Shown: positions 1,093-43,074, numbered from the stretch's first letter. The stretch: 64,000 nucleotides of DNA from Isoetes taiwanensis (GCA_021234155.1 JAJEKV010000074.1:3474040-3538039), one strand, 5' to 3'. Made by a program: numbers and translations. Notes: generated by a model from the letters alone, not told the origin.

Positions 1093-1105
1093 AGATCGTT
1101 TAATT

Positions 1106-1627
1106 TCAAAGAATAGAGTTTCTTAGCAGCCTAGCTTTGGCCACCTTAAAGAAGAACCTTGAACTACCAGAATCCATTTCTTTGTTAAATTTGACTTTGC
1201 ACTTGATTGTTGAGCTTTTAGCTTCAACCTCCTCTATACTCTTAAGATAATTTTCCACTAATTCTTCACCTACATGCAAGTTAAGATTGTATGGATCATC
1301 CTGCAGCAGGGATCTTATGCTTCTCATATGAGTTAACAAGTCCTCTTTCTCCTTTAGTCTTATGAGGTGCTTCTTCCTAGACCATTCTTTAATCCAGCTT
1401 TTGGCTTTCTTGATCTTAGCATAAAAGCTTTTCATAGATTGATGACTATAATCAGGTTGAAGACCAAGATAAAAAGCCCTGAAATCATTTACAAATGATT
1501 CATTTTCAAGAAGAGCACAATTGAATTTGTAGGGAATATTTCCATCTCTTGGAATTTGAGTCAATTGCCTTGTGCATAGAAATTGTGGTCGGTGATCGAA
1601 ATTATATTCCTTCATCACTTGTAACAA
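1106..1627 (-). pseudogene. LINE ORF2 linker between endonuclease and RT
   Basis: A 173-codon frame that begins with the end of the endonuclease domain (FDHRPQFLC in place of the usual SDH-P) and continues into a basic, helical region with WIKEWSRKKHLIRLKEKEDLL. This is typical of the segment between endonuclease and RT in plant L1 elements. It continues ORF2 after the frame break at about 1690 and is itself cut at 1106. No independent function is implied. Confidence 0.75.
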
Positions 1628-1675
1628 AACAATTATCCCAAAGAGAAGAATTAGGACCAGCAGACATAGAATCTA

Positions 1676-2275
1676 TCAAGAGCACACGGAGACCCTCTTA
1701 TCCCCTTTTTGCTTATTAGACCAAAAGTGAATGAGGTCAGAAGAGGGGACATGCACAAGCGAGGAATCAGAGATAAGATTATTCCAGTTACATCTCTCAG
1801 AGGCAGACATATTAATGTTATTCCCTAATTTCATGTTCCATGAAGGGGTATTATTAAAGTCCCCTCCAACAATCCAATCCGAGATAGAATTATTCTGCAA
1901 CCAAGAGTTAATATCATTCCAAAGCATCTCCCTATCCTTGGGGCAAGTAGGGGCATAGATGTTAATAATACCAAAAGTAGAATTTTGATACTTAAAGGTA
2001 ACAGCTTGCCACAATTTAGAAGGGGAATTGAAGAAACTAAGATGCTCAAGGTTTTTCCAAATCATGATGATGCCACCACTTCTCCCATTGGCCTCAATCC
2101 AAGTAGAATGAGATCCTGGATGAATCCAGTCACCAAGATTGGAGGTTTCAAATTTTGGAAGTTTAAGTTCTTGCAACAAAATCACATCAGCATTATAGCT
2201 CCTGATTTGAGAGATAGCTCTTTTTCTTTTGATAGGACCTTTAATTCCTCTAACATTCCAAGATAAAATCCTCAT
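1676..2275 (-). CDS. LINE ORF2 N-terminus: AP-type (EEP family) endonuclease
   Basis: Starts at the ATG at 2275 with MRILSWNVRGIKG, the classic start of plant LINE ORF2. Visible active-site motifs are the N of WNVRG, the E of LLQELKL, IYAP, and GGDFNNTP (catalytic D and N). This nuclease nicks the target DNA to prime reverse transcription. The frame stops at 1676 after NKQKGDKRV. A neighbouring frame reads LDRFYVCWS, the expected continuation, so a small indel near 1690 has broken the ORF. The terminal catalytic SDH is found downstream as FDHRP near 1590. Confidence 0.9.
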   Translation of the reverse strand: MRILSWNVRGIKGPIKRKRAISQIRSYNADVILLQELKLPKFETSNLGDWIHPGSHSTWIEANGRSGGIIMIWKNLEHLSFFNSPSKLWQAVTFKYQNSTFGIINIYAPTCPKDREMLWNDINSWLQNNSISDWIVGGDFNNTPSWNMKLGNNINMSASERCNWNNLISDSSLVHVPSSDLIHFWSNKQKGDKRVSVCS

Positions 2276-2330
2276 TATACTATGAGCTTATAGAGACAAG
2301 AAAAAGGAGAGGGAGAAGAAAATCAGAAAT

Positions 2331-2957
2331 TTAAATATATCTCTTTTTCTTTTTTCCTTTTTTCTGTTTACTTCTAGTATTAGCAGCAGGAGTATTAGTG
2401 AGGTCAGCAAAAGTTGAGCTATTCTTCTTATACTTAAAGACTTTGGGCCTAGAGGGTTCAGATGTAGTAGTTAGACCAGCAGAAGAGCAGTCAACAAGAA
2501 ATTTATCCCCTTCCCAATTTTCTTTATCATTTGCATTTTCAATCTCATCTTCACTAATATCAGAGGATCCCCCAGGAATGAATTCAAACATTCTATTTTT
2601 AGGAGAGACAGGAAGCTTAGGGAGATTATGCATAAAAGAGGGGGAAAGAGAAGAAACATGACCTGGATTGTTGCATTCCACAAGCTGAGATAGATCTTCT
2701 TGCAGAACAACATTAACTCCTTGAGTAGAGTCAGCTGCCAAAATCTTCTCATTATCCCACCAAGTATTGTCATCTTGTAGGCCAGTTGCCTCCCTTTCTG
2801 GAGTGTCTTGTACAATATCTTCATCCATAAGATTATACTGACAATAGTTTTGGCCCTGTGCACTGAGGCCCTCTTGCAAAGATGCCAGCTGCTGAGCAAT
2901 TTCCAGGGCAATATTTGAGGGATGGAGGGGGGGGATCAGGATCTGGTGAAAGATCAA
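2331..2957 (-). pseudogene. LINE ORF1 C-terminal segment, displaced by one-base indel
   Basis: This 208-codon frame overlaps the end of ORF1 and reads on in the same direction. The switch point is the homopolymer near 2925-2935 (eight G on the plus strand). Reading across it with a one-base change fuses the proline-rich end of ORF1 to this frame. It encodes an acidic, serine-rich region (ISEDEIENANDKENWEG) and a strongly basic end, KQKKGKKKK, suitable for nucleic-acid binding. It ends about 55 bases before the endonuclease ATG. Either the element is broken here, or the assembly has a homopolymer error. Confidence 0.7.
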
Positions 2958-4800
2958 TAATTGGGGATTGCAAAGGATTCAAAATGCCTTCACATGGTTT
3001 GCTCAACAAAACCTCCAAATCAAGTTCAGGGTTAAGGTTAGCTAATACCTGGAATTGGTTAGAGTTACCAATTTTGTGATCAGCAGCCATCTCCTGAACC
3101 TTACTTGACTCAGCAACATTCATTGGGAGAGTAACTTGATTGCTCTCCTTTGGTGAGGTAGGAATAGGAGCTGGAATAATCTCCACCAGAGTATCCTTGG
3201 GATCAAACATAGATTGTTCATTCATAGACTGTTCATTTTCCAATCTATTTTGTTTCAGAGTTTTATCATGCTTATTTTTCTTGTTTAATGGACCATTCTT
3301 AACCCTGTATGAGTCGAGAATATCAGCATTCTCCTTGTTCTTGGCGGAAAGCTTTGCATCCAAAATAATCTTGCTCAATGTGTCATGCAAATTACTTGTT
3401 TTTGAAAAGCTGCCATCTTTGTCAGTGGTTGTTTTGACAGAATTTTCATGATTCTGCAACACATTGACTTGCAAAGCTTCACCATTCCTGAGTGTCTTCA
3501 CAAAACCACCTTTAGGCTTCCCTTTATTAACTGTCTCCTCATTCTTAAGTTCAGCCTCTCTTAGCTGCTTTCTTCTCTGAATTCTTTTGTAGCTGCCATT
3601 AACTTTAGTCCACTGAAAATTGCTATCCTTGGAGATAATGCATGGAGCAACAAGGTCAGGATCTTGATGATCAATTACTGATCCATTTGAATTTTGCTTA
3701 ATCTGCTGTTCGTTGACCTTGTTGCTAATATTGACTTTTTGGTTGACCTGCTCATTGACTTGACAATTCTCAGATATCTTTATAGGAATTCGTTCACAAG
3801 AAGCTGTTAATTCCCTGCAGGAATCATACCAAAAGTGTCTAACCTTACAAGTTTGGCACTGAGGTGGCAATCCAGACCATCTCAAATCTAGAAAGGCTTC
3901 TTTCCCAAAAACATCTTGAAAGGGGATGTGGAGGGGAATGTCTTTGGTAATATCGAGCTGGACAATAGAGCGGGGTGGTCTATAGGGCGAGAATTCAGTG
4001 CAGATATAGGAACCAATTGAGTCAAACAATAATTTAAGACAATCCTCATTCCAGTATATTGGATTTAAACCGTGAAGGGTAGTGGAAGCAACACAAAGAT
4101 TGTCCAGATTGGCTACCTCAAATTTAGGATCCCATTTAAGAAAGGCAAGTTGAAAAGATTCATAAGCCATTGGACCATGATTTAAGAGAAAATTGGCAGA
4201 TCTTTTGTTGCCACATTCAATCATGATATATGGGAAATGAAGCCAATAAACAGCATTTATAAGCATACCCTTCTGAAGGTTCAGGCAGAAAGACCAAAGT
4301 TTGTCTAGTTTAATCCCATGCTTATTAGTTTTAACAATTACAGCAGAGTCATGGAAAGAGTTTAATTTTGCATGAACAGAAGGAAGATCTAAGGAAATAC
4401 CATTGAAAATAGCCTTCTTTCTTGCACTGAATGGACCCTTGAAAGGGCGGATATCTCCTAGGATCTTGTCCATGGTAGCATCAGTGGACAACGGTTGATC
4501 CGATCTTTTTTCCCCATAAGTAATTGGAACTTCGAGGACGGGATCAATGCTTGGAAGTCGGCCTAAGAAATCCGGATCCTTGGAGAGATTATCCCAGCAT
4601 GGGACTGTAAAAGATAGTGGATCCATTGAAGGCTGCCCAATGCCTGGGTTAGCAAAATTACCAAAGAAAATGAAATTTTTGGGATTTTCATGGAAGGATC
4701 TTAACTGTTTGAGAAGCTCGGGACGATCAGAGGGCGCGAATTCAGCAAAAGCGTGAAGAATGGAGAGAAATTTAGGGTAATTTTTGCTTTTAAGAGCCAT
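2833..4800 (-). CDS. LINE ORF1 protein (DUF4283-like, zinc-knuckle RNA-binding), N-terminal 655 residues
   Basis: Open for 655 codons from an ATG at 4800. In plant LINEs this protein binds the element RNA and forms the RNP used for target-primed reverse transcription. Residues about 130-330 look like the DUF4283 region of plant retroelement ORF1/gag-like proteins (tryptophan-rich, ending in a segment with PLHIPFQDVFGKEAF). It is followed at about residues 330-345 by a degenerate zinc knuckle, CQTCKVRHFWYDSC, whose spacing (C-x2-C-x3-H-x5-C) departs from the usual C-x2-C-x4-H-x4-C. The rest is a hydrophilic, low-complexity tail. The frame runs out just after a proline-rich stretch encoded by a run of eight C, and the natural C-terminus continues in another frame (see 2331-2957). 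Confidence 0.85.
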   Translation of the reverse strand: MALKSKNYPKFLSILHAFAEFAPSDRPELLKQLRSFHENPKNFIFFGNFANPGIGQPSMDPLSFTVPCWDNLSKDPDFLGRLPSIDPVLEVPITYGEKRSDQPLSTDATMDKILGDIRPFKGPFSARKKAIFNGISLDLPSVHAKLNSFHDSAVIVKTNKHGIKLDKLWSFCLNLQKGMLINAVYWLHFPYIMIECGNKRSANFLLNHGPMAYESFQLAFLKWDPKFEVANLDNLCVASTTLHGLNPIYWNEDCLKLLFDSIGSYICTEFSPYRPPRSIVQLDITKDIPLHIPFQDVFGKEAFLDLRWSGLPPQCQTCKVRHFWYDSCRELTASCERIPIKISENCQVNEQVNQKVNISNKVNEQQIKQNSNGSVIDHQDPDLVAPCIISKDSNFQWTKVNGSYKRIQRRKQLREAELKNEETVNKGKPKGGFVKTLRNGEALQVNVLQNHENSVKTTTDKDGSFSKTSNLHDTLSKIILDAKLSAKNKENADILDSYRVKNGPLNKKNKHDKTLKQNRLENEQSMNEQSMFDPKDTLVEIIPAPIPTSPKESNQVTLPMNVAESSKVQEMAADHKIGNSNQFQVLANLNPELDLEVLLSKPCEGILNPLQSPIIDLSPDPDPPPPSLKYCPGNCSAAGIFARGPQCTGPKLLSV

Positions 4801-4968
4801 GCAGAAAGAACCAGGTGAAAACTACAAAAGCAGAAGGAACATGTGCGAATAGGCAGGAGGGGAAAACAAAGGCCAGGGAAAAAACAGAGGAAGAGCCTAT
4901 CTAAATCTAAGAAGCCAGAAAGCCACACTCAATACCAAATTGAAGGAAACCAGACGCCAAAACATGAA

Positions 4969-5274
4969 TCATTGCTCGGAGTAGACCTTTACCACAATCT
5001 TGGAATCAGCCCAGTCACAATGAACATGAAAAGTGCCCGAAGCAGAAACTTCTTTCTTTCCAATGAACTCCTGTAACCAAGAATCTACAATCTCTACTTC
5101 AAATTCTACTGAACTCGGAACAAATGAATACTCAGGGGCAAATAGTTCCTCAGGAAAATGCTGTTCAGAGATTAGCGAATTCCACAGGTCAGAGGGAGAG
5201 CCTTTCAAGAAACCACAAGTCAATCTCGAATTTTGCTTGATAATTGTGAAGACATTGGTATCCATTTGTGGCAT
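4969..5274 (-). CDS. Possible small ORF upstream of the LINE ORF1
   Basis: A 101-codon minus-strand frame (start 5274) lies just upstream of ORF1 in the same direction. Its product is acidic and has no motif I recognise; FIGKKEVSASGTFHVHCDW is a sample. It could be part of the LINE 5' leader, an exon of a host gene into which the LINE was inserted, or chance. Nothing in the sequence decides this. Confidence 0.25.
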   Translation of the reverse strand: MPQMDTNVFTIIKQNSRLTCGFLKGSPSDLWNSLISEQHFPEELFAPEYSFVPSSVEFEVEIVDSWLQEFIGKKEVSASGTFHVHCDWADSKIVVKVYSEQ

Positions 5275-5378
5275 TTGATGAGGGGAATCATGAGAATTGC
5301 AAGCCCCTACAAGGCTGGCAATCTAAATCCCCCAAATTGTCTTCAGAAGCAGACTGAATTAGCACAGCAGATCAAGAT

Positions 5379-6180
5379 TTGAGTTTGAATCAGATAAGAC
5401 AAAGCAATCAAGAAAAATGGCGCACATTGCTGACGTCCCATTTTCATCCCAAGGTGTACTTGGGAAGCGGTTCTGATTTACAGCTTGGGTGGGAAGCGGT
5501 TCTGATTTCACGGCTTACAAGCTACTTCAAGCAGACATGGCCAACTTCACCTCTTGGATCTTTGAAAAGCGATGGAGTGCCGGAATGGGACAATGTGACC
5601 CGAGAGAAGAAGAGCCCATAATACCTAGGCGTGTTGTCCCGATTTTCACCCATGCGAAATGGATGGACATCCTCGAGCAACATAAATTTCTCTATTCACC
5701 TGGATGAGAATATGACCACAAAAATGCTTGAAAAGCTCTCACCAGAGGATGAATTGTACAATCGAACCTCCTGCACCTCTCAACTTACTCTGCTGCCATC
5801 GGGGTTTTACACACCATCTTTGGCCTTCCTCCTCATACTATTGACCAGGATCTCAAAGGTTGAAACCTTTTTCCGCTTAATGGCTACCAAGCCTTTACGC
5901 TTAGACAGTTCCGCTTTTGTTATGATAGGTTGTTTACAGAGGACCAATTCCTTCACTTCGGGGATATGTTCTATCATCACAAGGGCTTGCAGGATGCACA
6001 TGGAGATGCCGCTATTCCGCTTTGGTAACACCGCATCATTATGGTTTTTGCTTTCCCCGAATGGGATGAAATAGGTCGGGTAAGTCTGACCGTGGCACCG
6101 ATCCGGGTGATCATAGAAGATGACAAGGAGGAGCTGGACCCGATCTCTTTTTGATAGACGACATACGAGAATGAAAGCAA
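5379..6180 (+). pseudogene. Frame-broken coding-like remnant, family not recognised
   Basis: Across this stretch the plus strand shows coding-like text that hops between frames: an early part with ADMANFTSWIFEKRW and VVPIFTHAKWMDILEQHKF, and later QFRFCYDRLFTEDQF and FGDMFYHHKGLQDAHGD (about 5890-6020). No single frame is open throughout, as expected for a decayed gene or retroelement protein. A near-duplicate phrase GSGSDLQLGWEAV / GSGSDF at 5465-5510 shows a ~30 bp tandem duplication. I cannot name the family. 6181-6750 holds AT-rich sequence with no supported gene. Confidence 0.35.
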
Positions 6181-6755
6181 GTGTATATAAAAGTTTTGTT
6201 TCTCATGTAATCTGAAATGTTTAATACAAATCCGCTTGTAATCTGAAATGTAACCTTATGTAATCATTTTATATGTTTAATATAAATCTTCACTCTTCAA
6301 TCTTCACCGTTTAATTGGATGGGTGAAAGTGACACACGTAAAAATTACATTAAGGATGAAATGAATGGACAGAGAAACACATGATGAAACCCACCATTGG
6401 AAATCACACATCAAATGCAAGGTCAATCATTCAAAAGCTGGGTCAGGGGGGAAGCATTGACGGAAACCCTAAATCTAGTTTTGCATGCGGATATTGGCTT
6501 ATCTCAATCCAGCTATGGCGGAAGAAAATGTAAGGAGAACACGAGCACAAAACAATTTCGCCAGTTCAAATGCAATGCGATCCGTAGGACCTATAATGGA
6601 GCAAATAAACCGAACATAGGCGGATATTAGAGGACCTGGAGGATCCATGAATTCTGAGGTATTCTAGGCTTAAAACATAGGTTAATTCCCTATAGGCTTA
6701 AAGAATTAGAAGCCAAGGCGTTGATAGGCTGCCTTGCCTTTCTTTGTAGTAGAAT

Positions 6756-7172
6756 GTGATTTCTATATTACTAATGATGTTGTTTTACCACGATGCAGCC
6801 AGGAGGCTTAACAGCTGGTGCAAACGAGGGGATCTGGGGTGGCGTATGATTCTGATGATGAGTTTGCGCCTCTCCCCGAGTGAGGAAGAGGATATGTTCA
6901 TCCAACTAAAGCAGGAAATGATCCATGCTTCAGCCATTAAAAAGTGCTCAAATGGGGCCGATGCATGGAGACACAACAACTTGAGACAATACTTTATGAA
7001 TCTTTATCATAAGTGGGAGCAGAAACGAGAAGCTCATGTTTTAGTGTTGCTGGATTTCACCAACTACTCAACAGAAAAACTTGATCTCATCTTGAACATA
7101 CTTGGAAGAAGAAGAGTTACAGATCTCACAATGCAGGATCTGAGTGGCCCAGTAACTGTATGTCATCATTAA
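6756..7172 (+). CDS. 138-codon frame of unknown nature
   Basis: A plus-strand frame, basic and rich in Met/Leu, with a passage KWEQKREAHVLVLLDFTNY. Another frame over the same DNA reads VAYDSDDEFAPLPE, which looks more protein-like at the start, so a frameshift near 6860 is likely if this was ever coding. No domain recognised. It may be a fragment of the same decayed material as 5379-6180. Confidence 0.2.
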   Translation: MISILLMMLFYHDAARRLNSWCKRGDLGWRMILMMSLRLSPSEEEDMFIQLKQEMIHASAIKKCSNGADAWRHNNLRQYFMNLYHKWEQKREAHVLVLLDFTNYSTEKLDLILNILGRRRVTDLTMQDLSGPVTVCHH

Positions 7173-7343
7173 CCTCTTCAAAACAGCTATTATTATATCT
7201 CTAATGCATTTTGATAATACTAGGGTTATAGTTTTCCCTGATTTTTTTGCATACTTCATTTCATAAGAAGTATGAACTATTCTACCGGGTATGGTAGATT
7301 TCCATATGTATTTTTATTATTTAAAATATAAAAACAACGTTTG

Positions 7344-7403
7344 TATCACCACAGTTTTCACCACATTTTTCACCACAACTTTCACCACAGATTTCACCAT
7401 AAT
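7344..7403. repeat. Short (TTTCACCACA)n tandem array
   Basis: Five imperfect 11-12 bp units built on TTCACCACA. It shares its core with the larger arrays at 8542-8688 and 12083-12640. On the minus strand it translates to a repeating CGE/CGD-type peptide, an accident of the repeat. The flanks 7173-7343 and 7404-8000 show no supported gene. Confidence 0.85.
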
Positions 7404-8020
7404 CAGCTAGGGCATTGACCATTTTTGACCCGTTGAGAAAATGGAATGGCTCTCGATTCTCGATTCTTGACCGATTTTGGTGACAAAGAATATATGGATC
7501 CCAAATTAGGTCCCCTCGAATTGATATGAGGCCAAAATTCATTAAGCTCGCTTTGTGCAAAGATTCTTGCAAGGCCACTAACTTTTGCTTCGTGGAATTC
7601 GTGTTTTTCTTTTCGCTTTTTTTTGAACTCTATTTCTTTTGAACCCGAGCCACCCATCTCATATTTTCCTATTTGTCTTTGGTTACCATATTTTGTTAGT
7701 GTGCAGTGATCATAGATTCTCGCCTTCAAATTCCTTGTTTGCATTTTATAATTAATGACAAAAAGTTCAAATAATGAACAGTTCAAATTTAACGAAGGAG
7801 CAAAGGGAAACTTCGTAGAACGCTTAAAGCAACAAAATAGTCACAAATTGTAGAGAAGAGAGCATTCATCATTAATGAAAAAGCTTTACAAAAAATGGAG
7901 TCACAAGGACTATTGCAAAACAAGTTCGGTCTTTAATGAAAAAGTTTACAAAGAATAGTCACAAGGACTATTGCCAAAAAAAAAAACCGTGGATTACAAA
8001 AACAAATCTAAACTAATCGG

Positions 8021-8335
8021 TCAAGGGCTTGATCTTCTCCCGCGTGGGGCCATCCTCAGCTCTATATGGAGGTCGTCCTCCATGGCATACATCTTCATTT
8101 CAAGCGCCGCCTCGCCGGGTAACCTCGCATGCACCCACTTTCGAGCACCCGTGATCTGACGGCCGCACCGCGGCATCCATGATGAGCTTCTCCACCTGCG
8201 GGTGGAGTGAACTTGGCCACCACTCAGAACTCCGTGGCCTCCCGAAGAAGACACGATTCGACCGTCTTTGGGCGAAGGAGCAGTGCACAATGGCCGGGAT
8301 AGTATTCCCCACAGAGTGTAGTCTTGAACCTGGCC
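8021..8335 (-). pseudogene. GC-rich coding-like remnant, unknown family
   Basis: A GC-rich island in AT-rich surroundings. From an ATG at about 8335 the minus strand reads MARFKTTLCGEYYPGHC, then after frame changes KLIMDAAVRPSDHG and RKWVHARLPGEAALEM, and finally LRMAPRGEKIKPLTD. The piecewise coding look across three frames suggests an old gene fragment with at least two indels. Composition differs clearly from its neighbours. No family is recognised, and a GC-rich transposon fragment is an alternative. Confidence 0.35.
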
Positions 8336-8541
8336 ATGGCGGAAGTGAAGGAGATGGACGGAATGGGGAAGGAGGAAGGAGATGGCCGGAAAACGATGGG
8401 GACTAATGGACTAATGAAGCCGCAGGCAGAATTTTGGGAATAAAGGGATGCAAAATCGTAGGCATGCATACGATTTTGGGAATCAAAGCAAGAGGAAAGG
8501 GACGCTTGCATGCATATGATTGCATACCTCGAGGGCCGAGC

Positions 8542-8688
8542 CACCCACCACATGTCACCACATGATTCACCATATGTACCATTTGCATCACCACAAAGAT
8601 AACCACAAGATTCACCACAAGATTCACCACATGCACCACATGATTCACCACATGCACCATTTGCATCACCACATCTATCACCACATTG
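8542..8688. repeat. CACCACATGATT-type minisatellite
   Basis: About twelve imperfect 12 bp units with core ATTCACCACATG and variants (CACCATTTGCAT, CACAAGATT). Same core as the arrays at 7344 and 12083. It is immediately followed at 8767-8801 by three copies of AGTATACAAT, a separate short repeat. ORFs here (HHMYHLHHHK and its complement) are products of the repeat. Confidence 0.9.
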
Positions 8689-9041
8689 TCATGAATCTTT
8701 GAATACATCAATTTCTTCGAGAGATTTGAACTCCACCAGAGTGTTGCTCTGGTCAGCCAGAAAAGTCTATTGTATACAATAGTATACAATAGTATACAAC
8801 AATGTACATTAGAGTGTCAATGAAAGAATAGGTTACAAGAATAACCTCTTTGGTTACAATAATACAAACATGTGATTACAAGTAAAGATCTATTGATCTC
8901 AAACCTCAGCCTTCATTACTAGAGCAACCGTTAGCTTCACAACATCAATCATCATTCTCACAGCGTCCAACAAAATGCCACTAGAAATTGGTACACCCTG
9001 CAACAAATATATCAGGCCCTCACATTGGATGAGTAATACCT

Positions 9042-9386
9042 TCAAATTCTGAACTCACCTTGCATTGGGATAGTATGTCCAAGTCTCACATTATCTGCAG
9101 CCACAACTTTCTTTACAAAGACACATATAAAGGACCACCACGACCAAAGAATCGACCGAGTGGGGAACTTGTAATTCTCTTTGTGGTGCAGCTTTATGGT
9201 GCTTGGGAATTTTGTGTTTGCATCCTCAACAAAACTCATGACAGTTTCGGAGCCCTTGTACATTTCTAGATCACAAATGGTACACACCGGGCGACATTTA
9301 ACCGGCTGACCTCCAAGACCTACAATGACATACACCGGCCCAAGGCTGATAACATGCTGGTAGAATGGTACATTCCAAAATTGCAA
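9042..9386 (-). pseudogene. 114-codon frame near the FCP1-like remnant, family unknown
   Basis: Minus-strand frame containing HVISLGPVYVIVGLGGQP and a cysteine pair, CTICDLEMYKGSETV. It lies downstream, on the same strand, of the FCP1-like phosphatase remnant at 9961-10530 and may be part of the same decayed locus. No motif secures a family; a resemblance of the GPVYVIVG phrase to phosphoesterase text is too short to use. 9390-9960 has no open frame of note. Confidence 0.3.
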
Positions 9387-9960
9387 GTTGAGGGTTCAAG
9401 CAGTTTGTCCTTTCAAGCATGCTCATTCGACAAGAATGTGTAAATGAGCGGATCCATGAAATGGAACCTCTTCCATGTCATTCTTGATGCGAGAATTGGT
9501 GCATACACCGCCAAAGTCCAAGGTCTGGTAAAAACAAGATGATTTAAAAAACAACAGAAGACTTCAAATCTGAGTTGTTTATATTAAATCACTAACCTCA
9601 TGAAGAAATGGACTATCCTGTCACTGAACCAATCCCTACTTTTCTCCAATATTCTGATTGAATCTTGATCAAGTACAAGAGGCTCCTAGCGTCCCTTTAA
9701 ACACTTCAAGTGGCAAGTGTTCGGGGATGATGTGCCTTAACACTGCAAGTCCCTCGGCCGGTGGTGTAAGTTTACATTCAAAGAAAATGGAAGATCATTG
9801 AAAACCTTGAGGAACATTGAAATAGCCAAGAAATGAACAATTGAAGTAAAACTTTGTTTATATTAAAAAGTATAGAGAGGTTACATCATATACACAATAA
9901 TACTATTTCTAGGCTTTAGTTCTATGTTTTTCATCATATTAATACAAATTTGACTCTCAA

Positions 9961-10530
9961 AGTCAAACATATTCACCATTTTGTTGCTTTCGACATAACT
10001 TTGCACATTCCCCGCCTTTCAAAGAACCCCAAGCCAAACCTTTAGATCATTCATGAGGAAATTGCCATCTACTATGTCGTGGTTCCAAATTTGGACAGAT
10101 CATGGTGTTTGGCTCATTGAGGTACCCTTTGTATCTGCTTTGTCATCAATGAGAAGCACGTTCTCTTTGTGAAACCCGAAATTCGTCAGAGAGGTGCTTC
10201 AGAAAAATTGGCTTTCCACTGTTATATAAATTTGTGTTGGTACACTGATCCTGATTCCATATGAACTGGAATTTGTCCTGATATTTCATCAATGCTCCCT
10301 TAACTATCATTCTCAAGTTTTGAGCCCGCAGTCGGACCAAAGTGCTATATAAAAATTGACCGCACCAATCTAAGAACTCGCCCACTGATCTAGTTATCGC
10401 CCACTTGGATCCGTAAAGTGTGACCATGGTAACACCATCTTTTTTGGCAGTGGGTATTTTTTGATTCTTGTCATAGCTTCTACCCAAAACTCCATTGTAG
10501 TAAAAAACAAGCAGGATTGGGCTTAACCTT
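9961..10530 (-). pseudogene. FCP1/NIF-like (HAD superfamily) phosphatase domain, decayed copy 1
   Basis: The family comprises Ser/Thr phosphatases of the FCP1/SCP type, which act for example on the RNA polymerase II C-terminal domain. In order on the minus strand: LLVFYYNGVLGRSY (position of the DxDG/T nucleophile motif), VGEFLDWCGQ, then IALWSD in a neighbouring frame (the typical WS block), MKYQDKFQFIWNQDQCT, KPIFLKHLSDEF, then after another frame change VLLIDDKAD and NVQSYVESN. This order is diagnostic of FCP1-like domains. The nucleophile Asp reads as Tyr, at least two indels are present, and stops follow the LLIDD block, so the copy is dead. It lies in divergent orientation to a second copy at 16211-17015. 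Confidence 0.8.
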
Positions 10531-10539
10531 GTAGTCTTC

Positions 10540-11015
10540 TGATGGACGAGTTGGTGCGGTGGCTGGAAACTTCGCTTCAAAGATTTCTTGGTCTATCGAA
10601 ACTTCGCTTTCAAAGATGTCTTCGTAAGGGGCTGGAAACTTCGCTTCAAAGATGTCTTGGAGGTGTCTTTTGTTTGGAATTCTGCTCTTGATTTTTCTCG
10701 AGACACTTCCAACCGTAAAAAATTTAATGATTCTCAACTATATGGGTCAAATTAAAAGAAGACAGACACAAAAAGGTTGGAAGTTACCTTGTGACTTACA
10801 TTCACCTATCGATTTGTTCAGATCATAACCTGATGCATCTGCTGATTTGGCAGATTGGTGTGGAGCATGACTTAATGCATCTGCTGATTTGGCAGATTGT
10901 TGTCCGGGGCTGGAGCTTGACTTGATGCACCTAATGATTTGTTGACATCTACCGATTTGTCCGAAGTTCCCCGTAACCTGATGCATCTTCTGATTTGCCC
11001 GAAGTTTCTATCTCA
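10540..11015. repeat. Two tandem-repeat patches inside the decayed gene
   Basis: Patch one (about 10555-10660) repeats GGAAACTTCGCTTCAAAGAT-type units three times, giving the peptide (D/E)IFEAKFPA on the minus strand. Patch two (about 10828-11000) repeats a ~55-60 bp unit with GATGCATCTGCTGATTTG-like text three to four times, giving SAKSADASGY-like peptides. They keep a minus-strand open frame, so they may have been protein repeats in the ancestral gene. Confidence 0.7.
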
Positions 11016-12082
11016 TGTCTAATGCTTTTGAAGGGGTGAATGTCTTGTCCCCCTAGCTGATCACATTGTACCTCTATATCTACAAAGTAGGGATGAAGAA
11101 GTAAGCTACATATCCCAATTGCATCAAACAAGACTTGGTTACCTTTGAGGGTAGAAAATAATTCCCTTTTGGTGTGCTATATGGACTCACAAAGTCATTG
11201 CCACCAAAGATGAACAGCTAGACCTGAATTAGTAAACGGCACCATGCTCGCAAACACGGAATTGAAACACAATTGATTGTAACTATGCTTTGGCATCTCA
11301 ATATGACAAGGGCGCTCACCTATAAGTGCCTCAAGAGCTTGAAGTTGCTTTTGATCCTCCCTACTCACACCTAAGGCTTGTACCCATGTCAGAGAAAATT
11401 CATGACAGCAATTCTCAATGCAATGTTGATTACAAATCCCGCAAAGTGAACGCAAATTTGTCAATGAGAATACAATTATACTAAGCACTTCAGAATTTTG
11501 TTATGAAGTACCTCAAGAGGTTGAGCGTACATGGAAGATGGTATTGGTGATCGGATTCAAGAATCAAAGTTGGTAGTGGTTTCCCCATCCACTTTGGAGG
11601 ATATTGCCACAGAATGGACAGCTACTACCATAATCTTCAGCCTTATCAAGGAGTAGTGGATCCAAGACAAATAAAGGAAGACGGTCCTTGCAAGACGTAA
11701 ACCTCTCTAACCTTGGTTCCAAACTTTCAATGTTTGTTGTGTATCGCTTCCCCGGCCGACAGCCAGATTAAGCTCCTCGATTTTTGTCCGCTCAAGTTCC
11801 GGTAATAGTTCCTTGAGCTCGACCTCGTATCTTGGCATATAGCCCGAATACCGCCCCGCATCGACTTGGTTTATCCTTAATCATTCCTTTCCATTTTTTA
11901 AATCTTTATTCATCTTCTCTCGGCCCGAACTCAAGGTGTTGAACCTTCATTTGTAGCACCCGCAGCTTTGATCACAAGTTTGCAACCTTGCCTTTACACC
12001 GAATCACTTTTGATCTTGTAGAGTTGATCCATTCTCCCAAAGTCCTCGTTGAATTCAACCGAAAGTAATCCAAGGTTAGTAC

Positions 12083-12640
12083 CACATGACACAACAGGCA
12101 CCACTTTACACACCACAAATTTCATCATGACAAACTTTGCACCACAAATGGCGCCATATTCACCACATGTGGTGTGGCATGTAGTAAACTGGTGCCACAT
12201 GCCACACCACATATGGCACCACAATGCACCCAAAGCACCACATATGGCAATCCATTACCACCACAAATGGCGCCAAAGACACCACATGTGGTGCAAAATG
12301 GGATCCATAGTGGTGCCACATTAGACACCACATGTGGCACCACAATGCACAATAAGCACCACATCCGCAGTGCATCCACCACCCCATATGTGGCACATAG
12401 CGTGGTGCAATATTTAGCGCAGTTAGCTTGGCACCACATATGGCGCATAATCCACCATTCACAAGTATCACCATATCTAACATCACATATGACACTAAGT
12501 ATAGAAACATATGGAAGCCAATTCACTATTCGGATAAGGTACCACGCTTGGTACTATATATGACACTACATATGCTACAAACTATATTATTAACATATAA
12601 TTGGCACCATATGACTGTCACCAGAACACATTTGAGCTAC
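12083..12640. repeat. CACCACATATGGC-type minisatellite, ~550 bp
   Basis: A long, degenerate array of 12-20 bp units built on GCACCACATATGGC and CACCACATGTGGTG. Many units are themselves palindromic around CATATG or ACATGTGGT, so the array can form multiple small hairpins. It is the largest of three CACCAC-core arrays in the first 13 kb. All long ORFs in it, on both strands, are repeat artefacts (His/Pro or Cys/Trp-rich). Confidence 0.92.
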
Positions 12641-13781
12641 ATACTCGTGTGAACTGAAATTATCCACCACAACTCGAAACTAGCAAAGACAAATTTCCTA
12701 CACATAACTTACAACACACCCAAATGAAGAAGTAAGTGGTGTACCCCGATTGTTCAAGCTTGCTAGACCTTTCTCGAAAATAACAGCCCAATATTAAATT
12801 GCATCATATGGTGGTTCCAAGAAGAGGGTTGAAAAGTACCTATTTTTTTGATTTTCCCCGAGATTCTTCTTACGCCTTGAGGAGGCTTGAATTGTGGCCT
12901 AGTCATTTCAAGAGAGGAAGCATCATCTGTGGCATTTTGCTCTGCTTCCTCACTATTTGAAATGCTTGCATGCTTCCTCTTATGTTGGGACGGAGGCTTG
13001 GACCCTTTTTCTCTTAACTCATTGCGGAAAACTCAACCAGGTTTATTTCTTTTCCTTTTGTGTGAAGGTAACACGAATGACCATAGTCTGTGAGGCCATG
13101 CCTCCCCCGTGCACACTTCCTTTGTGTGATTTTCCGTAAAGGGACATATATTCATTATACCTCTCCTTGCTCGATTCTTCAACCTCGCATGATGAAACAA
13201 AACAATATTTTAAATAACAGAGAATCATGGGCATCCCCGAATCTAGAATGCAACCCACCAGTAAGTGGATTTTCCCCATACTTTCGGTCCCCAAACGCAC
13301 TTCGATTTCTTCTTGTGTGGCGTAATGCTTTTCTTTGCCCGTACATTTCCTTGTAGGTGTATCCCGTGGCATTCAAGTCCCAGATGATCGAGCCATTTAA
13401 GTGATTGATCTTCTTGCCGAAATCAGAAATGGTCTTGCCGATTAAGGGAGCGGATCGAGTTTTTGAGGGAAAATGAAAAAGGCATCGTAAATCAAGAAAA
13501 GACAAAATTTTGAATAAGTAATCATGTGTATATTTGAAAAAATAACTGCCTCTCCCACTACAAATTCGGTAGTTCCCACCACACTTAGCACCCAAAAATA
13601 TGGTGCTAAAATGCACGTTTTTGTTCCACTACAACATGCTTTCACCCTGAAGAAGGTTGTTAATCTGCTGGCGCAGCCAGTAATTCTATGCCATGCGCAG
13701 AGTAAACAAAATGCATTGCCAATTTTGATATGGGCTTAGGGTGCCCTATTAATTTGATTTTCTTGTTTTCTTCCAGCCCAG

Positions 13782-14414
13782 AAGGAACGTGTCCCTGAGA
13801 CCAGACCTGGTGATTGCCGAACAGAGGAGGACTTTCATGCAGGTCTACCAAACGATGGTGTACATCCCTCTCAATTTTGAACGGATGTCATTTCTGCTGC
13901 AGAGTATAATGAGGTTTGGGATACCAATAGTGTCATTCCCAACAAAACTTTAATTGACAAGGTAAGGCCAGAGCATGAAGAATCTTTAATTAAACTGCTG
14001 AGCAAGATATACCTAGAAGGGTTGAAGAATAGAGAAGTAAAAAAAATGGTTTCCTATTTATTTGCATTCAACAACTGCCAGAGGGCCAAGCAGGCTCCAG
14101 AAAATTTCAAGGTTAACTATGCAGCAGTGGCAGCAAAAAGTAGGGCCTATTCAAGTAAGGTTAAGAGCGAACCCAGCACCAACGGCCCTGTGAGCATAGC
14201 AGAGCCCAGCAAATCTCAGCAGATAACAGCACCTGAAAGCATAGCAGAAAGGCCAGCCTCAAAGAGTAATCGGTGTAAAATTAGAAGGAGGTTGCCCTTT
14301 AGGAGTACCGCAATGTGCCCAGCAGCGTTCTCAACTTATGGAGAACACATTGCATGCCTGGAAAGCATGATCCAAGGTGTGCAGGATGCCTTAAAATGCA
14401 ACAGAGTGATCTAG
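13782..14414 (+). pseudogene. N-terminal region of FCP1-like copy 2, coding-like
   Basis: A plus-strand frame open (with one early stop) to the stop at 14414. It reads AEYNEVWDTNSVIPNKTLID, LIKLLSKIYLEGLKNREVKK and a Ser/Pro/Lys-rich tail with VNYAAVAAKSRAYSSKVKSE. It has the look of an N-terminal regulatory region with a disordered linker. It precedes, in the same direction, a Cys/His cluster at about 14808, an acidic stretch at about 15420-15620 and the phosphatase domain at 16211-17015. Treating these as one gene is inference from order and strand. Confidence 0.45.
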
Positions 14415-14802
14415 CATCCAAGAAGAACTAGTTGCACAATCTCTGGCAAAGGGCACCTTCTTTTTTCTTTAGAGAGCGTAAGTTGCATCCATAAAGGATA
14501 ATATTGCACGCCTTCAAGCCCTCTCAAATCCTAATGCAGTGCCTCTCACGAGATTCAATTTGCAGAGGGAGAAAGATATAGCAAAGTATATGTTGAAGCC
14601 CCTTTTGAAATGGGGTGGGTCAATAGATGAAACCATGGTACAACAGTGGCTATTCTAACTGCGAGGTTGCCAATAACGAGTCCCTCCTTGCAAAAAAGCC
14701 CAAAGAACACTTACGTATGTCACCAGTCGAGGGAAATGACCAAGATAAATGATCACCTAGTCAAAGATCACTTCAATACCATTCAAATTGCCAATTGAGA
14801 TG

Positions 14803-14930
14803 AGGAGAGATGCTCCACATGTGGTCTTGCATTCCGGGATGATTACACCCTCACCGCATGGATGAAATGTGGACATCATTATCACGTGAGTCACGCCTCC
14901 GGTTGCTCACGGAAAAACATGTTGCCTCGA
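14803..14930 (+). pseudogene. Cys/His zinc-binding-like segment
   Basis: In frame the DNA reads CSTCGLAFRDDYTLTAW followed by MKCGHHYHVSHASGC. The C-x2-C ... C-x-H-H-x-H ... C pattern resembles a RING/SWIM-type zinc-binding module, though spacing is not clearly any one class. It is preceded by REMTKINDHLVKDHFNTIQI and an in-frame stop, so the exon is broken. It probably belongs to the FCP1-like copy 2 locus. Confidence 0.45.
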
Positions 14931-15349
14931 GTGTTCGGGGATACTATTCCTATAGGGTTAGTGCGTGAATTGGGGAAGCAGTAAAAGTAAAGCAGGAAGT
15001 GTTATATGCTGGAGCATCTCACAAAAAAACGGGAATGAGATAATTGATGTTGATGAGCATGCACAACTTCCGAGAGCAACAACAGAAAAAGAAACAAGTT
15101 AATACACCAAGAAGTAAAAGGACCCTGATCGCAAAGCGCAAGTCTACAAGGGTTTAAACTCCAGCCAAGACATGGAAAAAAAAAGTACATGCCTATTTTT
15201 TCGTGGTCTCAATTTGAATTGGTAACGGTAGAAGATCCTATAGGCATTGGACGACAAGCTATCGTGCCCTGCATTGGCAAAGACTGACATCACATCAGGT
15301 CAAGACACCAACCCATGCGTAATCTAAGGGAGATTCAAGTAGTACTGAT

Positions 15350-15880
15350 GATGCTGCTAGTTATGTTATAGTTCCAAATTCTGCAGCTGCCTCTACAAAG
15401 GCCTCCTCTAACACGGTTGCCGCGGGGAAGGAAAATGATGGCGAAGATGTCGACAAGCAGGTTCTTAAAGTCGTTTCCAAGGTCAACAGGTTGACATGGT
15501 CAAGGACCAAGAAGGTTGTGGAAGAAGAGAGTGAGGATGAGTCAGAAGTTGATCTTGATGAAGACGTCTCTAAAGAAGTAGCATTTGGAAAAAAAACAAG
15601 GCTAATGTAATTTTGCCATATGTATTTCAGGCAGGCAAATTTTGATTGCTCAAGGCAACCCTAAACCATCAGCCAAAAGGTTTTTGTTTAAACAATTAAT
15701 ATATTTGATCCCTATTTTCTTCCACCATGAATGTGTAAATTTTGTTTAATTAATTCATTCAACTTAGGCTTGAGTAAAAACTTGTCTGCAGAAAAAGAAG
15801 GCAGCCAATAGTTATACTTAGTGAATCTGATGAAGAAGAAGTGCCAGCACAACCTCTAACATACAAAAGGTGTCATCCAT
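15350..15880 (+). pseudogene. Acidic linker segments of the plus-strand decayed gene
   Basis: The segment at about 15350-15610 reads VIVPNSAAASTKASSN, then VLKVVSKVNRLTWSRTKKVV and EEESEDESEVDLDEDVSKE. After an apparent intron with an AG at 15789 comes IVILSESDEEEVPAQPL in a frame open to about 15870. Acidic Ser/Asp/Glu runs of this sort are common in nuclear proteins. The AT-rich gap 15615-15785 fits an intron. No domain can be named. Confidence 0.4.
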
Positions 15881-16210
15881 GATTTAAGATTTAGGGTTGT
15901 TTTCCTGTTGCATTTCACCTTATATATTCTCTACAAATTTCAGTTGGTAATTGGAGCACCACCCTTGCTATTGCAGGAGAACAGGGCAGGTTGTTAATGA
16001 TGAAAGGGAGGATGAAGCACAGAAGGCCACTGCAAGGGTTACTGATAGCCAGGAAATGCCAATACATTAGGGGCAGGGAGATACTAATCTGAGGATGTAT
16101 TTGATTATGGCTATCAACACTCTCCATTATCGGGTAGCAAAGCTAAAGCGTAATCTAGCGGTCGCGGTAAAAGTCCAAGACATCTCTAAAAAGACAAATC
16201 CAACACAAAG

Positions 16211-17015
16211 ATGGCAAAAGACAGCCTAGCATTTCGCATCATCACAATCCAAAGACACCTCGGCAGAGGTGCAAACATCGAGAGATGGGAACCCAGATGG
16301 AAGTTGATGATACTGGACATAGATGATGTACTGGCACAAACACAACAGAGGAGAAGCAGCCAAAAAATCTTGCCTCCACCTCATACGAACCATGTTGTAA
16401 AAGAAACTGCAAATAATTTGCAGATCAGGGTACCATGAGTTTGTGGAGTTGGCACTGCAGAGGTTTCATATTGTGATCTGAAGTGTTTCTCTACTTCGGA
16501 ATACAAGGGATATGGTGGATGCATTGTTCCCAGAATTACAGACCAAATTCTTAAAGGTATATGGTCAAGAGCAGTGCTATGCATGCGAGCATCCAACCAA
16601 TACAACAAAGCAAACTTTTTTTCAAGGAGTTGAAGGTTGTACTTGATGGTTTTCCTGAATATCATGGTATGATTTTCTTGGTAGATGACAGCCTACACAA
16701 AGAGTTTCTAAACCCTCCACACACAACCATTCCTGTTATCCTTTCAAAGGACAGGAAGAGGACAATTTTTTACAGAAGTTTGTGTGTCCAACATTGGATT
16801 ACTTGTCTTCCCATATAGTTGAAGAAACAAACTCACAGCTAGACATCACTAATGCATGGTTGCAGAAGGAGACAATTCATGTGCTGGATTACTGTCTCAA
16901 CAACTATCTTATTTCGGCCTATTATATCCTCGATACTCCAAAAGAGGTACAAAGGCAGTTGTTGGGCACCACTCCTGAAGACTCTAACCACTCTGAAAAC
17001 TCTAATGACTCCTGA
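16211..17015 (+). pseudogene. FCP1/NIF-like (HAD superfamily) phosphatase domain, decayed copy 2
   Basis: The domain runs in order: RWKLMILDIDDVLAQT (DxDx nucleophile motif, aspartates retained), GYHEFVELALQRFHIVI then a TGA where the family has Trp (the WS block), MVDALFPELQTKFL, VYGQEQCYACEHPT, then FFKELKVVLDGFPEYHGMIF, LVDDSLHKEFLNPPHTTIPV (the LIDDS-NPPHT block) and a helical tail to the stop at 17015. The break between CYACEHPT and FFKELK is a one-base change in a run of seven T near 16616-16622. So the locus carries at least one nonsense and two frameshift changes. Better preserved than copy 1, and in divergent orientation to it. Confidence 0.85.
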
Positions 17016-17205
17016 AAATATCATTGTACACCTTTTGTAATATATATGACTTACGTTTTTGTAATCTTGAGTATTTATCCCAAGTAATGTCTCTAATACA
17101 AAATTTAAGATAAAGGTCTTCAAAATTTAAGATAAATGCTGAAATGATGAAACAACTAGGTCAAACTATTTTCAACCTTTATATGGTAGGCTGTCAAGGA
17201 TCATC

Positions 17206-18252
17206 AAGGGAAAACCTGGTGGTGTCGGGAATTTGATTCATCTCAAACTTGATTAACTGTGACATGATGACTGTATTGATAAATAAGACCTTTGTTTTGA
17301 AGTAGCTCCCAACTACCATCGGGTTAGATAGCATAGTATAAACCAGCCAACACATGTTCATCGATATTAAAAGTCTGACCCCAACTGTCATGTACAATTT
17401 TGTCAAGAATATGCCTCAGCTTAACACACTTCACCACATAGAAGTCTGCATTTTCTTTGTTGCCCTCTTCGGCTACAACTACAAAGTTGTCACCTTCCTC
17501 TATGTTTCCACTAAGCCATCCTCCATCACCTTCAAAAAATGCCTAGTCAATTTCGTCATCAAGTGTTTCACCGGTAGACTTCATAGGCTTCAGTGTCACA
17601 TACTTTCAATTCTTCAACCTGTGCCTATTCACACAACATGACCAGTTTCCCTTCAAACAGTTACCACAGAAATAACTTAAACCTCTATGAACTACCCTTA
17701 TGATCGATTTGGCCATGTATGTCCTGATGCTGTGTATTTCCTTGGTCCCTTCCACCCTGGCACAGTCCAGCCGGTCTGTCCTATCAAGATCATCCTTTCC
17801 AATTAACCAGAAGTACCTGCAAAGAGACATCAACAAATATTGCAATTCACAGACAGCATTACTCAGCATAATACAACATTACTTTCGGCATTCTGACAGT
17901 TCACACAACATTACTCGTGAGAATACAAAGGATAAAAGTATAATACCTTTTGATGTCCCCGTTGTTGGTACCGTCATTCCAACGAGTTGCGAATTCACAG
18001 GCATTAGCAGCACCCCTAAATCTCACCCCATCATACTTGACCTGCTCTTTAGTGAATGCCCCCTTAAGAACTACCCTTGTCCATCGTGCTCTCCTTACCA
18101 CGGCCCCCAAAGAAATTCCACACTATTTCCTTCCCTAGCTCATTGTGATATCTTGGCGGAAATAGAATGGTAAACGCCGATTTAGAATTGGCTAGAACAA
18201 CCATCGACCAAACTATATGCCCGGAGAATTTACTCCATTTGATACCAGCCAT
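17206..18252 (-). pseudogene. Spliced pseudogene of unknown conserved plant family
   Basis: Read on the minus strand, the gene starts with MAGIKWSKFSGHIVWSMVVL and passes, after a frame change, through KGAFTKEQVKYDGVRFRGAA and ATRWNDGTNNGDIK. It then crosses a canonical GT-AG intron (17946 to 17817, 130 bp, splitting K-R-Y) into YFWLIGKDDLDRTDRLDCAR, IIRVVHRGLSYFCGNCLKG, FFEGDGGWLSGNIEEGDNF, ENADFYVVKC, SWGQTFNIDEHVLAGLYY and FEMNQIPDTTRFSLDDP. It has about three nonsense codons (one a Trp TGG to TGA) and one frameshift near 17250. Trp/Tyr-rich blocks and a C-x2-C pair suggest a folded domain. It converges on FCP1-like copy 2, ending about 190 bp away. I do not recognise the family. Confidence 0.6.
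17817..17946 (-). other. Canonical intron inside the 17.2-18.25 kb pseudogene
   Basis: Donor AAAAG|GTATTA at 17946 and acceptor CTTTGCAG|GTAC at 17817. Joining the exons restores an uninterrupted reading frame across DIK-R-YFW. The retained intron shows the pseudogene arose by DNA-level duplication or decay in place, not by retrotransposition. Confidence 0.7.
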
Positions 18253-20279
18253 GAATTGTGCTTTCTAAAACAAGTCTTTGCAAAAAGGAATGTCATGAAT
18301 CTTGTCACCACTTAATTAAAAATGAGTTTCTTTCAATAGCTTTTCGATCTCGTGAGCTTTTGTCTCTCCCATAATGATGTGGGCCGAGAATTGTTATCTG
18401 GTCATTGTGCGATCTTGCTCAACCTCCCTTTGTATTTTTATGTTGTAATTCTCTGCAAAATCAATTACAGAAACAACGGTCACATGGATTATATATGTAT
18501 ATTATAGATATATTATAGACATGCACAGAATTATTATAGGCTTAATTCTAAGGTAATTCAAATATTTCCCTTAGGTATTGAGCATGGGCTAAACCATGAA
18601 GCAAAAGGGAGGGAGCCTCCATAACAGTGCATCTACTTTGTGTCATGTTAGGAGCACATATAATTTTAAATTATGAAATACGGTTGCGCCTAAGGTTTTA
18701 AAATATAAATATTGGGACTTGAACCTCAAGTCTACATAACATGCATCTACAATGCATTATGTTAGAGGCGCCTATGATTTTAAAATATGAAATGTGGTTG
18801 TGCCTAAGGTTTTGAAATATGAAATAGTAGGATCCAAACCTCTACCAAAATAATTCAATGTTCCAACAAGAATTCTTTGACCAATAAAACCAGCGAGTCA
18901 AGTCAATTATTTTTTCTATTTGATTTAATTTTAACGACAATCCATTCATTTATTTTTGGGGCAGTGGCCTATGGGTTTAGGTGTTGTCATTCATACCTCT
19001 AAATCAAACATACTCTTGAATGCTTTTTTAAGATATAATCGGGATATATAATGTTTATCTATCCAGTGAGCAAAGAAGGAAAGAACGGAAATTTTAACTA
19101 TCCAAAGCCGGTTCTCTGCAGCTGAGTAGACGTGTGTGAGATTCTATGAATTTTGTAAAGCAACTCTGTGCAAAATCATCGGATTCTCAATATTGCTCAT
19201 AAATTTCATAGACCTGATTTGTCGAACACATCAATTTCTAAATGGATTGAAACCCTTTTTTCTAGATCCACCATTGCCCAAATCATAGTAAAGAGATAAT
19301 TTTAGGGCCTTATTCATGGCACTATATAAATAAACTCATAGATATCCTTAAAAGCCTTACTTTACAAGAAATTTCTTTTTCTTTATGTTCTAACTTCTAT
19401 CATATCCTAATTGTTTTCACCATACGTAATGAATAAAAGATAAGGAACACACCCTTCCCCTCAAACAAAAAAAAAAGGGGGGGAGAAAGAAAGACAAAAA
19501 TTTGTTATTTTTCAATCTATGTGTGTGTGAGGGAGGGAGGGAGGGAGGGAGGGGCACCTTCACAAATAGGCTACATCCTTGTAGCCTTTATAGGCGGTGA
19601 CCTAATACAACATATTAAACAAAGGAAGCAGGCCACGGGGTGGAGACATAGAAATTAAAAAATAATACCCAACAAAATTGATGAATGATAACAAATATGT
19701 TTCTTTCAAATGGCATCTTTTTAAACCACCTCGAGGTTTATAGAATTGAACTGAATTGAATGATTCATAAAAGAGGGATAAAAATATAACATCAAATAAG
19801 CCCCATTTCAACATACACTTAGTTTTTTATACTATTTGGTGCAAGTTGTATAATTTACGATAAGGTATATATATGTGGTCGCCTGACTTCGAAACAATAA
19901 GGTCGAAATCACAGGTCAGCAGTACCTATACAGGTCAGAAAGGGAGGATTTCTGAAAGCTCGAATCGATGCCTTTGACAGGCATGCATTTTAAGGAGAAG
20001 TTCGATTATGGCTATGGGAACATAGCCTAAGTCAAAGTAGCAACTTTTTTCGAGTTAAGGAGCTTTCTATGTGGTTCTAATTTATTTCAAATACTCCAAG
20101 AGGAAATCAAATGAGTAAGACAAATGAGAAAATCAAATGAGGAGATGAATCAATGGTTTGGAAAATCATGAGGGTTCCTTTATGTACATCATGTTTGAGT
20201 TAGGCATTAGGAAGTCTTCCATACCAAGGCAAAAAAATGGCATGTGGCTAGGTTGAAGAACATGGTCAATATATGCCAA
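18253..20279. other. Intergenic AT-rich stretch with two repeats, no gene seen
   Basis: It contains a diverged tandem duplication of a ~125 bp unit (about 18628-18730 and 18750-18850; shared text TGCGCCTAAGGTTTTAAAAT / TGTGCCTAAGGTTTTGAAAT) and a (GGGA)n microsatellite at 19529-19553 next to a short (TG)n. The 70-codon minus frame at 19602-19814 has no recognisable content. Confidence 0.6.
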
Positions 20280-20861
20280 CTATGGTGAAGCACAAAGTGG
20301 AAACAAGGGTAGCAGCCGAGGCTGCCGGCCTACTACCTTAAATTTAGAATCTATTAAATAAGATCTGTGTTGATCTTCACTTCCCTTGCTTGAACATGCC
20401 TCACATGACACTGCCAAATCCTTTTGTAACCTTTTTGCGTCCAACTTCTCCGAAATGCACTCCTTCAACTTACAAATATCATGGCAGCTATCTTTCCTTT
20501 TAGTGCCACAATTTGCTGCACTTGTTGGGCCATCTTTTGTTAGCTCTTCTTGTAACCATGGCTTGTTTTTGTTAACCCTATTATCACCTTGAGAAGATGC
20601 CCTGCCTGTAAGCTTCTGCACAAGAAATCTGAAACTAGAGACGTCTGCTTGCACAAAGGTTGTAGAAGGAATATGAATAGGCACTGAACTATCAACAGTG
20701 GAAGAAATCTTCCTTCTTTTCGAAGAATTAGCTACAAAAGACTTCTTTGGCTTGTCTTTTTCTTGTCGGATCTGCAACGAAAGGGGATCAACATTAGCCA
20801 ATCCAAGAACCTCTATAACAGCGTAATTTCGGTCCTCTGCACAATCCATATGATAGCACAT
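20280..20861 (-). CDS. VQ-motif-containing protein, 193 aa
   Basis: A single open frame from ATG 20861 to the stop at 20280. Residues 77-86 are FRFLVQKLTG, a perfect FxxxVQxLTG signature. VQ proteins are plant nuclear cofactors that bind WRKY transcription factors and adjust defence, growth and stress responses; some are MAP-kinase substrates. A basic stretch KPKKSFVANSSKRRKI (about 38-52) is a likely nuclear localisation signal. The C-terminal half is polar, and the protein ends PRLLPLFPLCASP. A second in-frame ATG (MDCAED) four codons on is an alternative start. Upstream lie a leader intron and a TATA box, so the gene looks intact. Which VQ subgroup it belongs to cannot be said. Confidence 0.8.
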   Translation of the reverse strand: MCYHMDCAEDRNYAVIEVLGLANVDPLSLQIRQEKDKPKKSFVANSSKRRKISSTVDSSVPIHIPSTTFVQADVSSFRFLVQKLTGRASSQGDNRVNKNKPWLQEELTKDGPTSAANCGTKRKDSCHDICKLKECISEKLDAKRLQKDLAVSCEACSSKGSEDQHRSYLIDSKFKVVGRQPRLLPLFPLCASP

Positions 20862-43070: not shown

Positions 43071-43074
43071 AGTT

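Follow-up and report, generated by a model that had tools for sequence, protein, structure and literature searches.

Two families of terminal-inverted-repeat transposons with FCP1/NIF-like genes in Isoetes taiwanensis

Genes for the plant mobile domain (PMD) were captured from the host by MULE transposons, and an anti-silencing role has been proposed for them; MAIL3, a PMD protein with a serine/threonine phosphatase domain, is encoded by a host gene (PMC5418596). In Ectocarpus, the element Sola1-1_Ec32 has an accessory gene opposite the transposase strand, encoding a protein with ParB-like DNA-binding and DNA methyltransferase domains (PMC12477816). Here we describe a stretch of 64,000 nucleotides of Isoetes taiwanensis (contig C1083:3474040-3538039, called the window in its whole length), in which a six-frame reading gave two broken FCP1/NIF-like coding regions, at ~10.1-10.6 kb on the minus strand (left) and at ~16.2-17.0 kb on the plus strand (right). 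We consider it likely that both loci are decayed DNA transposons of the cut-and-paste kind, from two related families with terminal inverted repeats (TIRs), which have as a standing accessory gene one for a RING-H2-like finger and a NIF domain (the RING-NIF gene). The transposon identity of both families is firm. A search of open-licence papers, to which Repbase entries did not belong, gave no report of FCP1/NIF or RING-NIF as transposon cargo, and an earlier description is possible.

The Isoetes elements resemble Sola superfamily transposons, Sola1-1_Ec32 in particular, in their length, in an accessory gene that runs opposite to the putative transposase, in the 4-bp target duplications of the right family and in acidic transposase blocks that could form a DDD core; they differ in the accessory gene itself, which is ParB-like plus DNA methyltransferase in Ectocarpus and RING plus NIF in Isoetes. 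With the MULE-PMD elements they share a host-type regulatory domain on plant DNA transposons, but both the domain and the transposon group are different. Like Pack-TYPE elements, they are TIR transposons that move host-like coding DNA; unlike them, the right-family elements also encode transposase-like genes, and their cargo gene is under purifying selection. As to plant and animal NIF proteins (PF03031; dullard/SCP, FCP1 and UBLCP1), the domain is the same by Pfam and by the NCBIfam dullard-like/HAD-IIID profiles, but in Isoetes it is transposon-borne, preceded by a RING-H2-like finger and altered in motif I. The transposon NIF scores far under the NCBIfam subfamily cut-offs (37 versus 139 bits), and the solved protein nearest to it in sequence is UBLCP1 (3shq).

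Two nested transposon families

The genome searched comprised 1,658,258,908 bases in 1110 sequences. Each locus proved to lie within a larger mobile element, and the feature therefore extends over ~5.45-18.48 kb of the window and not, as first noted, over 9.96-17.0 kb. Its main parts are as follows.

5453-13647, minus strand: left element, a copy of a TIR family of ~10.0-10.4 kb full length; copies share the terminus at 13647, homology starts at 5453-5456, and the far end is cut short at 5453, next to a LINE (long interspersed nuclear element)
13624-13647, minus strand: left terminal inverted repeat, GGGTGAAAGCATGTTGTAGTGGAA in minus-strand reading, a terminus common to genomic copies
13648-13651, plus strand: junction TGAA, presumed to be the left element's target-site duplication, within the start codon region of the right element's gene (ATGG joined to TGAAGAAGG); its partner TGAA went missing when the left element lost its far end
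13648-18480, plus strand: right element, of the second TIR family (full length ~7.6 kb); it matches the complete copies E1-E10, with the first ~320 bp and the last ~2.3 kb missing

For the right family, we sampled ten 20-kb stretches (E1-E10, L009-L028) around NIF copies with long open frames, a choice that biases the sample to younger, less decayed copies. All-against-all comparison of these stretches gave a common block of ~7.6-8.2 kb with sharp ends. The TIR, GGGTGAAAGTATGCTGGTGGGTA, is inverted at both ends of the complete copies, and in all six complete copies read the same 4 bp stand on both sides of the element, with a sequence that varies from copy to copy; TIRs and target duplications of fixed length, the two marks of a TIR transposon, thus occur together in 6/6. 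With at most one mismatch the TIR has 523 genomic sites (0 for the reversed control), and facing pairs among the exact sites listed are mostly 7.5-7.8 kb apart. The complete copies are mosaic: E2, E5, E6 and E7 differ by ~25% from E1, E3, E4, E8, E9 and E10 in the 5' half (ORF1N, the N-terminal exon, to the acidic segment), while from the NIF gene onward all of E1-E10 are ~90% identical, which suggests that subfamilies have recombined with each other.

The left TIR, GGGTGAAAGCATGTTGTAGTGG, is akin to the right one (both GGGTGAAAG...). Copies of the left locus share a terminus exactly at window 13647, and it was read in six further copies, whose flanks differ. There are 794 genomic sites with at most two mismatches (reversed control 0), and facing pairs cluster at 10.0-10.4 kb; longer-spaced pairs probably hold later insertions. 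A TIR-like GGGTGAAAG at 6321 was rejected as the left terminus, as genomic copies run straight through it. Genome-wide, at least 150 scored copies were found of each NIF gene, among 337 first-look candidates for the right and 1612 for the left, and chance is therefore excluded for both loci.

The left element interrupts the start codon of the right element's gene; the junction lies at 13647/13648, and both elements decayed afterwards. At the junction, intact right copies read ACTATGGTGAAGAAGG and the window reads CACCC directly followed by TGAAGAAGG. Likewise, the gene start of uninterrupted right copies reads ...ACTATGGTGAAGAAGGTTG..., and the window has ...TTCACCC followed across the junction by TGAAGAAGGTTG.... 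It is because the left element sits inside the right element's start codon that the layout in the window is divergent. The first-pass annotation had described two decayed FCP1/NIF-like loci on opposite strands that point away from each other, and had suspected a dispersed family spread by duplication or by a transposon. The loci were borne out, and so was the spread by a transposon, both NIF genes lying inside high-copy TIR elements, with the 4-bp target duplications of the right family. Its divergent pair of one architecture holds as to the finger and NIF found in both families; there was no duplicated unit, one family having been inserted into another, with NIF domains only 26-29% identical.

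A segmental duplication of window 6407-20500 at C1050:11051856-11066039 carries this nested pair as well (85-92% identity, at least 14 kb) and also takes in non-element DNA at 18480-20500, right of the pair. A similar nesting seems, judged by coordinates alone, to be present on C357, where left TIRs at 203356 and 214298 fall between right TIRs at 199240 and 219521.

Genes, phosphatase motifs and selection

One strand of the right element carries the exon ORF1N, a coiled-coil-like stretch, the RING-H2-like finger, a Ser/basic/acidic segment and the NIF domain. The NIF gene was present in every complete right copy read. GT/AG sites between the open frames are compatible with a spliced gene, and we infer from them that splicing joins the frames to encode a single RING-NIF protein. 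The opposite strand carries a transposase-like set with the blocks IDFAENY, SDGC (SDGCSSQFKS) and HGKGEHDG, as well as CCCIYH and zinc segments. The set had no Pfam match; the three blocks are conserved among copies and could form a DDD core. Their acidic residues and the place of the set within TIR elements point to a putative transposase. The coding segments of the window are listed below.

13758-14393, plus strand: N-terminal exon (ORF1N) of the right RING-NIF gene, 67.6% identity to the E3 copy
14730-14978, plus strand: decayed segment with the right RING-H2-like finger; an unbroken copy scores 20.8 bits with zf-RING_2
14987-15595, plus strand: linker of the right element, a Ser-rich, basic and acidic segment
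16271-17012, plus strand: right NIF/FCP1-like domain, decayed, with DIDDVL as motif I; unbroken copy PF03031 E=1.6e-18
17203-17764, minus strand: C-terminal zinc segment of the transposase-like gene, 82% identity to the E8 copy
17946-18480, minus strand: core segment of the transposase-like gene, decayed and cut at 18480, where genomic copies diverge from the window; segments 49-51% identical to the E4 copy
10149-10514, minus strand: left NIF/FCP1-like domain, decayed, with FYYNGVL (no nucleophilic Asp) as motif I; unbroken copy PF03031 E=2.6e-12, at least 150 copies
10561-10660, no strand: 36-bp tandem repeat, ~3 copies, directly upstream of the left NIF
11564-11767, minus strand: open frame with the start of the left RING-H2-like Cys/His finger (CPFCG...), decayed; full finger read in copy L033

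Unbroken copies match PF03031 with 67.3 bits in the right family and 47.2 bits in the left (cut-off 21.8), and the broken pieces of the window by themselves, the left piece of 148 amino acids included, gave no Pfam NIF match. The right NIF segments of the window have frameshifts and stops and are 60-65% identical to unbroken genomic copies; the left NIF is 75-80% identical over ~110 amino acids to many unbroken copies. In open segments of 256 and 210 amino acids Pfam gave NIF alone, the C-terminal BRCT of FCP1 being absent.

Motif I of FCP1/SCP enzymes carries the nucleophile and the acid/base. Most right copies read DINGVL at this place; three of them, including the one in the window (with L002 and L008), read DIDDVL, which fits the canonical DxDx(T/V). 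The seven left copies read have FYYNGVL or similar, with Tyr for the first Asp and no nucleophilic Asp. The DxDx(T/V) expected of an active phosphatase is thus absent from most right copies and from the left copies. Alignment of both families shows that the Ser of motif II, the Lys of motif III and the Asp pair of motif IV are kept (WSAS/WSS, FFKELK/KHLK and VDDS/IDDS). From these residues, phosphatase activity is probably weak in the right family (DxN) or absent in the left.

The right finger has eight metal ligands with RING spacing (C-x2-C-x15-C-x-H-x2-H-x2-C-x9-C-x2-C), and its zf-RING_2 score lies under the Pfam cut-off of 27.3. In the left family, copy L033 reads CPFC...AECSHQYHLPC upstream of NIF, with Cys/His ligands in the order of the right family; six ligands are clear and the last pair is unclear. 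The first-pass annotation had pointed to extra upstream segments foreign to ordinary FCP1/SCP proteins, and these are the finger in both families, the acidic/Ser-rich segment in the right and the 36-bp tandem repeat in the left. The genome search that it had called for gave, besides the many copies of each family, unbroken NIF copies and the full upstream Cys/His finger.

Among 18 right copies, the pooled ratio of nonsynonymous to synonymous substitution (dN/dS) of NIF was 0.42, with a codon bootstrap of 0.30-0.51; wrong frames gave 0.52-1.07. Other parts of the right element gave 0.27-0.45 (transposase segments), 0.15 (ORF1N) and 0.35 (RING). These ratios show the predicted right NIF gene to be under purifying selection, about as constrained as the transposase core. 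As two families with NIF domains so far apart share the RING-NIF arrangement, and as the right gene is under purifying selection, we infer that the RING-NIF gene belongs to the transposon lineage as a standing accessory gene and is not a recent capture.

Possible role of the RING-NIF gene

The role of the product would most likely be accessory and possibly non-catalytic. It might act, with low confidence, as an accessory helper or anti-silencing factor, in which the NIF domain could dock on a phosphorylated nuclear partner, such as RNA polymerase II tail-like peptides. Our best guess is that NIF would bind this partner rather than efficiently dephosphorylate it. The RING finger might then ubiquitylate the NIF-bound partner, or it might support the transposase; both suggestions are speculative. 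If the gene does help the element, it would point to a new route by which transposons influence transcription, ubiquitylation or silencing in the host.

Several points weigh against a standing RING-NIF gene in two TIR families. The single fused protein is predicted from splice-like sites, and the function of the RING-NIF product is a guess. The left finger matches the profile weakly (E 0.1-0.5). The left NIF has a dN/dS of 0.54 (bootstrap 0.29-0.95), not distinguishable from wrong frames, the family being too young for selection to be told. The readable part of the left family gave no transposase, so that this family may be non-autonomous, and its assignment as a TIR family comes from TIRs and the spacing of facing pairs.

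An unlikely alternative is that each family independently took a host NIF gene by Pack-type transduplication, as passive cargo useless to the element. Host-gene capture by plant transposons is known (PMC5418596), the genome has many host-like NIF matches, motif I is altered, and the left family is without visible selection. What the two families have in common is, however, not NIF alone but also a RING-H2-like finger upstream of it, and the right gene is both under purifying selection and found in every complete copy read. Also unlikely is that the transposon product is an active FCP1/SCP-like phosphatase acting on the RNA polymerase II tail or on the transposase. It belongs to the NIF/dullard-like fold family, the residues of motifs II to IV are kept, as is the first Asp in the right family, and the DIDDVL of the three right copies fits DxDxV; against this, Asn replaces the second motif I Asp in most right copies, and Tyr stands at the first Asp in all seven left copies read. 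That the loci are a divergent, duplicated pair of immobile host phosphatase genes decayed in place is refuted by TIRs, target duplications and independent dispersal, and is very improbable even though the layout recurs on C1050, as the two halves have spread independently of each other, each to hundreds of copies that have TIRs and end sharply, and as the C1050 match spans non-element DNA and is a segmental duplication. A standing accessory gene of two transposon families, possibly non-catalytic, is therefore the reading we prefer.

Related families and other features of the window

Searched genome-wide, PF03031 gave 3260 candidates. Some 48 high-scoring matches (~90-196 bits) look like host genes, on top of which the transposon copies appear to come; the first-pass annotation had considered a genome with ordinary SCP genes only, and such ordinary-looking matches do exist, besides the transposon copies. 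Many other matches are at 60-85 bits, with matched lengths unlike those of the right family. A homologue of ORF1N (L043:2-745, minus strand, 33% identical) and one of the transposase CCC segment (L038:197-1374, minus strand, 47% over 58 amino acids) each adjoin a left-element terminus. They were ruled out as genes of the left family, as the orientation of the contigs puts both segments outside the left terminus, in other families. Searches with these two homologues gave 2301 and 4522 first-look candidates, respectively. Among the distant ORF1N, NIF and transposase positions listed (the best 150 of thousands each, and hence uninformative) there were no co-located pairs. The thousands of candidates for all three genes suggest that there are many more families in the genome.

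Possible, but clearly tentative, is a broader reading in which these elements form a new, very abundant plant DNA transposon lineage, perhaps a superfamily, with a standing RING-H2 and FCP1-like (pseudo)phosphatase gene that would capture or modify phosphorylated nuclear proteins for the element. Target duplications of 4 bp are among the features of Sola, though not unique to it, and the right family has them. The elements resemble Sola in such features, but membership in that superfamily is unproven. A weak scan of viral contigs with two peptide patterns only found no relatives of the transposase. The published repeat library of I. taiwanensis had repeats resembling plant proteins removed (PMC8566536), and for this reason RING-NIF copies may be annotated as genes or inflate phosphatase families.

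Inside the left element, a 121-bp tandem repeat with many CACCACATGTGG palindromes (12140-12390) is common to other left copies. The LINE-type retrotransposon at 1-5436 (minus strand) has endonuclease-like (MRILSWNVRGIKGP...) and reverse-transcriptase-like open frames and copies elsewhere of up to 96% identity; its end at 5436 adjoins the truncated left element. Farther to the right, an open frame on the minus strand at 42278-43084 is like a Copia-type integrase (YSPQQNGIAKRKNRTILN).

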